A DNA stretch of 64,000 bases from assembly GCA_003508835.1 (NCBI GenBank), contig PUFA01000164.1:3757001-3821000 (forward strand). The letters run 5' to 3'. The translations under genes were made by a program, and so were the position numbers. The first letter of the stretch is position 1, and each line of letters begins with the position of its first letter. The notes beneath the pieces are model-generated. The model was not told the origin of the DNA, did no database searches, and worked only from the letters and a program-made list of their open reading frames with translations. Source of the stretch: Eonycteris spelaea. Taxonomy: Eukaryota; Chordata; Mammalia; Chiroptera; Pteropodidae. Of this stretch, positions 1,917 to 36,878 are shown piece after piece.

Positions 1917-2077
1917 CTGCAAATTCCAATTCCCACACACATTTAAATTGGGAAGGACGAGGAAGTTCAGCTTGGCAATATGGCTGATGGATCCACAGTA
2001 GCAACGGTGCAGAAGAATTAAGCAATCGTTCTTAGAAACCAACATAAATTTCTTGTGTACCCACGAGTACATATATA
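1917..2077 (-). pseudogene. EYS: EYS exon 9, frameshifted with premature stop
   Basis: The minus strand shows a pyrimidine-rich acceptor ending TTTTTCTAG, a 161-bp exon and a GTAATA donor. From the first base (phase 0, as expected after exon 8) it reads Y-I-C-T-R-G-Y-T-R-N-L-C-W-F-L-R and then meets TAA at 2018-2020, codon 20. Human EYS at residues 434-449 is very similar (Y-V-C-...-C-W-F-L-K). One base appears lost near 2029. In the shifted frame the C-Y-C-G motif follows, then about four bases are missing near 1978, and a third frame gives I-C-Q-...-Q-F-K-C-V-W-E-L-E-F-A up to the donor, again matching human. A 6-bp gain lies between. The sum (-1, -4, +6) explains 161 against the remembered 160 bp for human c.1300-1459. 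The family role is an EGF-like segment of a secreted retinal protein. This exon cannot encode it as written. Confidence 0.88.
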
Positions 2078-17592: not shown

Positions 17593-17726
17593 ATTTAGTG
17601 TATATCACTCTTTGCTTGTTTTATGCTGTCTTCTCTTTCCCTCTGAATACAAAATATATTTGTTTTCTCTAAATAGGAGAAGAAATAGTTTATACTTATC
17701 CCTAAAATAGCTCATCAAATAGTCTC
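17593..17726. repeat. 134-bp tandem duplication, copy 1
   Basis: The first of two adjacent 134-bp copies, starting 'atttagtgtatatcactc' and ending 'aaatagtctc'. It differs from copy 2 at three positions by my reading (two adjacent changes after 'gtttat' and the last base). The near identity indicates a recent duplication compared with the old repeats around it. Confidence 0.97.
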
Positions 17727-17860
17727 ATTTAGTGTATATCACTCTTTGCTTGTTTTATGCTGTCTTCTCTTTCCCTCTGAATACAAAATATATTTGTTTT
17801 CTCTAAATAGGAGAAGAAATAGTTTATCTTTATCCCTAAAATAGCTCATCAAATAGTCTT
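17727..17860. repeat. 134-bp tandem duplication, copy 2
   Basis: The second copy, directly abutting copy 1 in the same orientation and about 98% identical. No known repeat family is recognised in the unit. Confidence 0.97.
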
Positions 17861-29395: not shown

Positions 29396-29714
29396 TCACA
29401 TCCAGAGTCAAGACCTTTCCTCTAACTCAGTTAAATCCAAAATTTTTATTATCGATAAATTAAATAATGAATTAAACTATTTGGAAAATATTCTTTGCAT
29501 TATACAATAAAATTCTAGAGATACAGAAATGATTAAAACGTTGTCACTCTCTTGAACATCTTATAGTAAAATAGACTTTCACACTAATTCAAAATTACTG
29601 TATATAAAGCAATCAATTAAATTGTAGGGATATTTTGGTCTTTAATAGATAGCCAATAACTGGGTAAACAACAGAAATACAAATATGGCAATAAGTTTTT
29701 GAACATTAAAATAT

Positions 29715-30636
29715 GTGATAAATCCATCGTGTTCTATATACCAACAATAAAATTTCAGAAAAATAAATTATAAAAAATTTATCTGCAATTACAACAAAAG
29801 GAATGAAATATCGAGGAATAAACTTAACAAAGGATATGAAGGACCCATACAGTGAAAATTAAAAGACATTATTAAAAGAAATTGAAGAAGACACAAAGAA
29901 ATAGAAAGATATTCCTTGTTCCTGGATTGGAAGAATCAAAATAATTAAAATGGCCATATTACCCAAGGCAATATACAAATTTAATGCAATCCCCATCAAA
30001 ATCCCAAAGGCATTTTTCAAAGAAATATAGAACAGGAAAAAAAAAATCATTAAATTTGCATAAAACCTGAAAAGCCAAAGCAATCATGAGAAAAAGAAAA
30101 GGATAAAACTGGAAGTATCACACTCCCTGACTTCAAATTATACTACAAAGCTATAACAATCAAAACACTTTGGTATTGGCAGCAAAATAGACACACGGCC
30201 AATGGAATAGAATTGAAAGCCCAGGAATAAGCTCACAGATTAAATAGTTAATTAAATAAACTATTTGGAAAATATTCTATGTTATATTTCTATTCTATTT
30301 TACTGAGCAATTAATTTTTGACAAAAGAGACAACAACATACAATGGAGAAAACAAGCCTTTTCAGTAAATGATGCTGAGAACACCTGAAAGCCACATGCA
30401 AAAGAATAAAACTAGACTGCTATTTGTCATCATGCATAAAAATTAACTCAAAATGGATCAAAGACCTAAATTAAAGATGCAGCACAATAAATACATAAAA
30501 GAAAATATAAATATTAAATTTATGGACCTTAGTCTCAGAGAGGAATTTGACCCCAAAGGCAAGGTAAATAAAAGCAAAAATAAATGAAAGAGACTATGTC
30601 AAACTAAAAAACTTCTGCATAGCAAAAGAACACTAT

Positions 30637-30674
<38 letters not shown>

Positions 30675-31683
30675 ACCAACCAAGTGAGAGAAAATATTGA
30701 AAACAACACCTCAAATAAGTGACTAATATCTAAAATATATAAAGAACTTGCACAACTGAACCACAGCAACAAAAATACCAAACAATCCACTTAAAAAAAG
30801 AAATGTGTAGAGGGCCTGAATAGGCACTTCTCTCAAGAAGAAATATAAATGGCCAACAGATATATAAAAAAGATGCTCAACTTTACTAGCTATAAGGAAA
30901 ATGCAGATCAAAACCACTAGAGGGTACCACCTCATACCTGTCAGAATGGCTATTATTAATAAGATAAGAAATAACAAGCATTGAAGAGGTTGTGGGGAAA
31001 TAGAAACCCTCAAACACGGCTAGTGGAAATGTAAATTGTTATAACTACTATGAAAAACAGTATGAAGATTCCTCAAAAAAATAAGAATTGAGCTACTTAT
31101 ACAACTTAGCAATCGCTCTTCTAGGTATCTACCCCCCAAATCTGAAAACATTTATTTGTAAACATATATGTACAGTTATGTTCATTACAGCATTGTTTAT
31201 AGGAGCCAAGAAATGAAATCAACCAAAATGTTTTTCAGTGGATGACTGGATAAAGAAAACATGGTACATATATCCATTGGAATACTACTCGACTATAAGG
31301 AAAGATGAAATGATGCCATTTGCGACAACAGGATGGATCTTGAGAATATCCCACTGGGAGAAATGTCAGATGGAAAAGAACAAGAATCATATGATTTCAC
31401 TCATATGTGGGATATAAAACAAACAAAAAGAAATGAATTAACAAAATAACAAACAAAAACAAATTTGTTGTAATCAACACAACAACATTAGGGTGGTTAC
31501 CTGCGAGGATGAGACATGGGAGGAGGTTGAAGAGGGTAAGAGGGTCACATATATAATCACAGACTGAGACTAAATTTTGGGTAATGAGCACACAACATAC
31601 AGAGGATGTATTATAATATTGTATACTTGAAGTTTATATAATCTTATTAACCAATACCACCTCAATAAATTTAATTACAGAAA
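29715..31683 (+). mobile_element. 5'-truncated LINE-1: ORF2 C-terminal half plus 3' UTR
   Basis: The order is typical of L1: RT thumb region ('gaaatatcgaggaataaact' at 29806), 'gaagatattccttgttcctg'-like block near 29905, 'cttcaaattatactacaaag' at 30130, and the ORF2 C-terminus through 31380. The 3' UTR follows ('cactcatatgtgggatataa' near 31397) and ends 'cacctcaataaatttaatta' before a GGAA tail. Frameshifts and stops are frequent. Two insertions interrupt it: about 60 bp at 30241-30300 and an A30 run at 30641-30670. It is younger-looking than the L1M remnants. The 3' terminus is of a kind I associate with bat L1s. Confidence 0.93.
30641..30670. repeat. Homopolymer A30 inside L1 ORF2
   Basis: 30 uninterrupted A inside the ORF2 C-terminal region, where intact elements have only a short A-rich codon stretch. 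Probably a slippage expansion. Confidence 0.95.
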
Positions 31684-31756
31684 GGAAGGAAGGAAGGAAG
31701 GAAGGAAGGAAGGAAGGAAGGAAGGAAGGAAGGAAGGAAGGAAGGAAGGAAGGAAA
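31684..31756. repeat. (GGAA)n microsatellite at L1 3' end
   Basis: About 18 GGAA units on the plus strand, likely grown from the A-rich tail of the L1 that ends here. GGAA arrays are known binding platforms for ETS-family factors. Confidence 0.96.
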
Positions 31757-35690: not shown

Positions 35691-35818
35691 CTGCAATGAT
35701 AATTGTGTTCATATTTCACATATGTGGTATTATTCTTGCAAGAAAATGACTCATGCGGTATTTGAAGTCCCTTAGAAAGTTTGCTTATAAATATTGGTGA
35801 ACAGATGCATATGGTACC
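35691..35818 (-). pseudogene. EYS: EYS exon 7, frame open but cysteines lost
   Basis: The minus strand has acceptor TTTTTAATCTTTAG, exactly 128 bp, and donor GTATAA. Read in phase 0 it gives G-T-I-C-I-C-S-P-I-F, then I-S-K-L-S-K-G-L-Q-I-P-H-E-S-F, then S-C-K-N-N-T-T-Y-V-K-Y-E-H-N-Y-H-C, ending with AG of a split serine codon. Remembered human EYS 353-394 (c.1057-1184, 128 bp) has the same length and the same C-I-C-S-P-I-F and E-S-F signatures. Of seven human cysteines, four are replaced here (C367 to Ser, C374 to His, C385 and C388 to Tyr). The exon is without stop but looks relaxed. Intron 6 upstream is only 878 bp. Confidence 0.9.
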
Positions 35819-36696: not shown

Positions 36697-36878
36697 TTAT
36701 ATTGCATTACTATTCTGACATGGTATTGATGAACACTTATTGACATCAATTTCACAGCCTTGATCAAGAAATCCTTCTTGGCACTCACAGATGTAAGCAG
36801 AACTTTTATTTTGGCAAATTCCCCTTTTCCAACCAGATGGAAAAACACAGCGTTCTGTTGACTCTTCACAGAATGGAC
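36697..36878 (-). pseudogene. EYS: EYS exon 6 (EGF-like), ends in in-frame stop
   Basis: The minus strand has acceptor GTGTGATCTTTTAAG, 182 bp and the strong donor GTAAGT (36696-36691). Read in phase 1 it gives (G)-P-F-C-E-E-S-T-E-R-C, then W-K-R-G-I-C-Q-N-K-S-S-A-Y-I-C-E-C, then Q-E-G-F-L-D-Q-G-C-E-I-D-V-N-K-C and S-S-I-P-C-Q-N-S-N-A-I, and then TAA (36699-36697) as the last codon before the donor. Human EYS from G288 has the same phase and matches at G-P-F-C-E, W-K-R-G-I-C, S-S-A-Y and P-C-Q-N. The remembered human exon (c.863-1056) is 194 bp, so about 12 bp are missing near the 3' end, where the next EGF cysteine should be. The stop sits in every reading that uses either nearby GT donor. 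Confidence 0.9.

Follow-up and report, generated by a model that had tools for sequence, protein, structure and literature searches.

The window, the 64-kb stretch of DNA analyzed here over its whole length, contains four exons of EYS. They lie on the minus strand, are collinear with the order of the gene, and each of the four is bounded by an AG acceptor and a GT donor:

36697..36878, minus strand: EYS exon 6, 182 bp, acceptor ...ATCTTTTAAG, donor GTAAGT
35691..35818, minus strand: EYS exon 7, 128 bp, open, acceptor ...AATCTTTAG, donor GTATAA
19852..19966, minus strand: EYS exon 8, 115 bp, open, acceptor ...GTATTTACAG, donor GTAAGT
1917..2077, minus strand: EYS exon 9, 161 bp, frame broken, acceptor ...TTTTTCTAG, donor GTAATA

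The exons were located first using an approximate human protein sequence and were confirmed using EYS proteins from the database. The best single-exon tblastn E-value among the four was 3e-17, obtained for exon 6 with blue whale (71% identity over 56 aa; 64% with marmoset and 59% with dingo). Exon 7 was 60% identical to dingo over 43 aligned positions, and exon 8 was 92% identical to marmoset over 39 aa (tblastn E 1e-16). The lengths of exons 7 and 8, 128 and 115 bp, fit what we take to be the human exon lengths, and the phases match. Introns of about 0.9, 15.7, and 17.8 kb separate the four exons. Because these introns are kept, a processed (retro) pseudogene was ruled out, and the locus appears to be the native EYS locus. 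The same introns argue against a reading in which these exons belong to a decayed segmental duplicate of an EYS gene that is intact elsewhere, in that they exclude a retrocopy. Moreover, human EYS has 44 exons and spans more than 2 Mb, as given in PMC11141876, and duplication of a whole gene of that size would be unusual. We consider a duplicate to be highly improbable.

A protein search with the window's exon pieces yielded 35 candidates, 18 of which passed, all of them named eyes shut. The top bit scores belonged to birds, a lizard, and gar, at 34-49% identity. The nine mammalian matches were 49-63% identical, and the highest identities were all from mammals; no relative of more than 63% identity was found in this search. 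The intact orthologs of dingo (P0006), beaked whale (P0009), and marmoset (P0001) have their exon order in common with the window and were 58-62% identical over 99-100% of the 191-residue query comprising exons 6-9. Unlike the window, they carry neither a premature stop in exon 6 nor a broken frame in exon 9. In a phylogenetic tree, the window grouped with dogs and whales (SH-aLRT 89, UFBoot 68), which makes a laurasiatherian the probable source; its placement beside the dogs was unsupported (SH-aLRT 30, UFBoot 47).

A search with four orthologs, considering the best 25 rows, found no exon upstream of exon 6 or downstream of exon 9 in the 64-kb window, a result that does not bear on whether those exons exist. 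The best rows fell on exon 6, as cross-matches between EGF repeats. The best of the other rows, 63668-63501 on the minus strand, matched EYS N-terminal residues 9-76 of beaked whale at 31% identity with internal stops (E 0.027) and was set aside as probably a chance match.

The remainder of the window contains few recognizable SINEs for 64 kb of a placental genome, as judged using approximate consensus sequences only. Specifically, SINE consensus pieces from dog, cat, ruminant, whale, pig, horse, vesper bat, rabbit, primate, rodent, armadillo, and mole had no match in the window at E 0.01 except for a low-complexity TC run with the bat piece. Ruminants, vesper bats, rabbit, rodents, and armadillo are accordingly improbable as the source of the window, although, the consensus letters being approximate, this is weak evidence. 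MIR gave two weak matches. Intron 8 contains a 134-bp unit present twice in tandem at 17593-17860 (98% identity). At 29700-31755, what looks by eye like the 3' part of an L1 element, including a 30-base A run at 30641-30670, gives way to a perfect (AAGG)18.5 repeat at 31682-31755. A scan of the window for tRNA-promoter-like sequences returned nothing convincing, and neither Rfam, at gathering thresholds, nor ARAGORN reported a hit in it.

The sequence-only reading had described exon 9 as an EYS exon with a broken frame between intact splice sites. This description was borne out: the acceptor and the GTAATA donor are kept, and the frame inherited from exon 8 reaches a TAA at 2018..2020 on the minus strand. 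The stop had been placed correctly, after 16 residues said to match human; the match in fact extends over 18 residues of the human sequence used and over 14 residues of dingo and beaked whale before the break. Three frames of the exon match the orthologs successively, as had also been proposed. Indeed, the frameshift-tolerant scores were 159 for dingo, 173 for beaked whale, and 104 for manatee, as compared with best single-frame scores of 84, 76, and 63, respectively. In 200 base shuffles per ortholog, the mean scores were 25.4, 23.9, and 23.5 in the same order, with a maximum of 44. Against the approximate human protein, the frameshift-tolerant score was 133, and 300 protein shuffles reached at most 46. 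The two breaks map as follows:

2023..2035, minus strand: first frame break, one base fewer than in dingo, beaked whale, and manatee; exact base ambiguous
1977..1979, minus strand: second frame break, one base fewer than in dingo and four fewer than in beaked whale and manatee

The first break, claimed at 2029, was mapped to about 2035-2030 using dingo and beaked whale and to 2023 using manatee or the approximate human sequence. The second, claimed at 1978, was mapped to 1979. The net deficits at the two sites were thus one and one base versus dingo, and one and four versus beaked whale. Since the second deficit is four bases relative to whale and manatee and a single base relative to dingo, part of the 4-base loss may be inherited. 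The alignments to manatee and human additionally need two codons more, and the proposed sum of -1, -4, and +6 bases holds relative to human. The 6-base gain was nevertheless rejected as a lesion: the two codons are also present in dingo, fox, and three whales and therefore represent no lesion of the window's lineage. They are absent from marmoset, owl monkey, the human sequence used, and manatee. Overall, exon 9 measures 161 bp versus 163 in dingo, by residue count, and therefore leaves the exon that follows out of phase.

A second exon is also disabled. The reading frame of exon 6 is open to ...CSSIPCQNSNAI and then meets a stop that was absent from the earlier description of the locus:

36697..36699, minus strand: in-frame TAA, final codon of exon 6, adjoining the consensus GTAAGT donor

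Exon 6 is 182 bp long, 12 bp shorter than the 194 bp expected from the codon counts of the orthologs. In dingo, fox, whales, and primates, nine residues lead from CQN (CEN in beaked whale) to exon 7; in the window, the equivalent interval comprises four codons and the stop. The exon may have been shortened through a loss of bases or through a new donor; the TAA is in frame in both cases. This stop is independent of the exon 9 lesions and lies upstream of them. On its own it would be expected to end the EYS protein, and it strengthens the case for loss of function that the sequence of exon 9 had suggested.

The single-base losses in exon 9 are of a type typical of long-read errors, which raises the question whether EYS is intact and the lesions are errors of assembly or base calling. 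We regard this as highly improbable. The lesions affect two exons separated by 34 kb, one of them is a stop codon that goes with a 12-bp change in length, and the breaks in exon 9 are not in any run of more than three bases.

Disabling lesions in an intron-bearing gene at its own locus are what characterize a unitary pseudogene, and this locus, apparently the native one, carries the stop in exon 6 and, in exon 9, a stop together with two frame breaks. Skipping of parts of the block is not expected to restore the frame. Of seven partial skips of exons 6-9 that were tested, six met a stop; the seventh, in which exon 9 alone follows exon 5, was open but ended in the wrong phase for exon 10. The phases of exons 5 and 10 used here are those of presumed human exon boundaries. 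The remaining partial skips, starting with exon 6, 7, or 8, would meet the same stops. A normally spliced transcript would accordingly be predicted to terminate within the N-terminal EGF region, ahead of the laminin-G domains, and would probably be destroyed by nonsense-mediated decay, leaving no full-length EYS. The photoreceptors of this lineage would then live without EYS, as do those of rodents and the other lineages with published losses. We conclude that the window probably represents the native placental EYS locus with an inactivated gene, that is, a unitary pseudogene, and we regard the data as best explained by loss of the main EYS product.

We further evaluated the exons for signs of decay. 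In the window, 4 of the 35 columns that are invariant in nine placental orthologs were changed, and none of the five invariant cysteines was lost. Each ortholog, compared with six to eight others, had changed more, from 9 of 62 columns in human up to 17 of 53 in manatee; because the sets differ in size (6-9 sequences), this amino-acid-level comparison is a rough guide only. An excess of amino-acid change in exons 6-9 of the window was looked for against the nine orthologs and was not found. The window has 23 cysteines, within the range of 21-27 of dogs, whales, and primates, and its branch length in the tree was 0.28 as compared with 0.25 for the stem of the dogs. Exons 7 and 8 together are open for 81 codons; stretches of equal length drawn at random from the window were open in 74 of 20000 draws. 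Based on the invariant columns, of which fewer have changed than in any ortholog, and on the kept cysteines, the exons bear, as far as this rough guide goes, no sign of long decay. Either the loss may be recent, or exons 6-9 may be under little constraint even where the gene functions.

Among dingo, marmoset, beaked whale, and manatee, conservation of EYS is lowest over exons 6-11. Pairwise identities are 44-65% in this part versus 78-83% in the laminin-G half, and of 59 protein segments compared, the five of lowest conservation begin at residues 301-501. In the orthologs P0001, P0006, P0009, and P0012, the EGF cysteines are eroded at residues of about 300-700.

Given the low conservation of exons 6-11, splicing from exon 5 to exon 10 deserves attention: the exon 6-9 block may now be non-coding while EYS survives by this route. 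Skipping all four exons would bypass every lesion seen, which is a point against gene loss. The arrangement would also be neutral to the frame, in that the acceptor phase of exon 6 equals the donor phase of exon 9 and exons 6-9 of orthologs together make up a whole number of codons (199 in human, using presumed exon boundaries, and 201 in dingo, counted in residues between those boundaries). Some gene models are missing parts of the block, specifically the first part of exon 6 in manatee and exon 9 plus the next 46 residues in Lycaon. The block contains 13-27 cysteines in the aligned mammals versus 30 in sauropsids, with the qualification that manatee is missing part of exon 6 and the quail row lies on other repeats. 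On the other side, canonical splice sites are kept in all four exons and no sign of a skip was seen, and the block stays open in dogs, whales, and primates. In addition, the phases of exons 5 and 10 derive from presumed boundaries, and the search of the window revealed neither of the two. On balance, we consider survival of EYS by this splice unlikely.

In a broader form of this proposal, exons 6-9 constitute a frame-neutral, weakly constrained EGF cassette that is being dismantled independently in several placental lineages. Here, the cassette alone would be dead, and a shorter EYS, joining exon 5 to exon 10 and keeping laminin-G, would be working as a natural 'mini-EYS'. We consider this combined proposal quite unlikely. 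If it is true that only the exon 6-9 block is dead, the locus would show which portion of this very large protein is dispensable, a point relevant to shortened EYS genes for therapy; PMC8127272 states that research on a functional mini-EYS is needed.

Inactivation of EYS remains the preferred reading. The loss of function proposed from exon 9 gained an independent stop in exon 6, and it is tempered by several points: only four exons are seen, exons 7 and 8 are open, the exons belong to the least conserved region, the block is frame-neutral, and erosion does not exceed that of the orthologs.

In humans, EYS is needed for lasting vision, and its absence leads to retinal degeneration. Each independent loss of EYS is therefore a natural test of photoreceptor survival without the protein. 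The sequence-only reading had named mouse and rat as lacking EYS. This is correct, but the published list is longer: according to PMC11141876, EYS is missing or interrupted in mouse, rat, guinea pig, rabbit, armadillo, Myotis lucifugus (little brown bat), cattle, and sheep. PMC9738688 and PMC8127272 also report loss of EYS in mammals, and PMC7671337 and PMC9355568 place it among the eye genes lost mainly in subterranean mammals. PMC8127272 further states that, across vertebrates, photoreceptors have calyceal processes where eys is present. Because losses in these further mammals are already published, loss in one more lineage is less surprising than had been supposed. In a literature search that was not specific to the species, no published description of the exon 9 lesions was found. 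The main text of the Myotis davidii paper PMC4199690 does not mention EYS in a term search, and PMC3526296 contains the term in its reference list only.

The window thus fits as a further case of the recurrent, already published loss of EYS in mammals, with which it shares the loss or interruption of the same gene in a placental mammal. A second comparison is with the human null alleles of recessive retinitis pigmentosa, a disease for which EYS loss of function is thought to be the mechanism (PMC11141876). Truncating lesions are common to both. In contrast to the human alleles, several truncating lesions occur here together in one sequence, the pattern that one would expect for a lineage and not for a patient.
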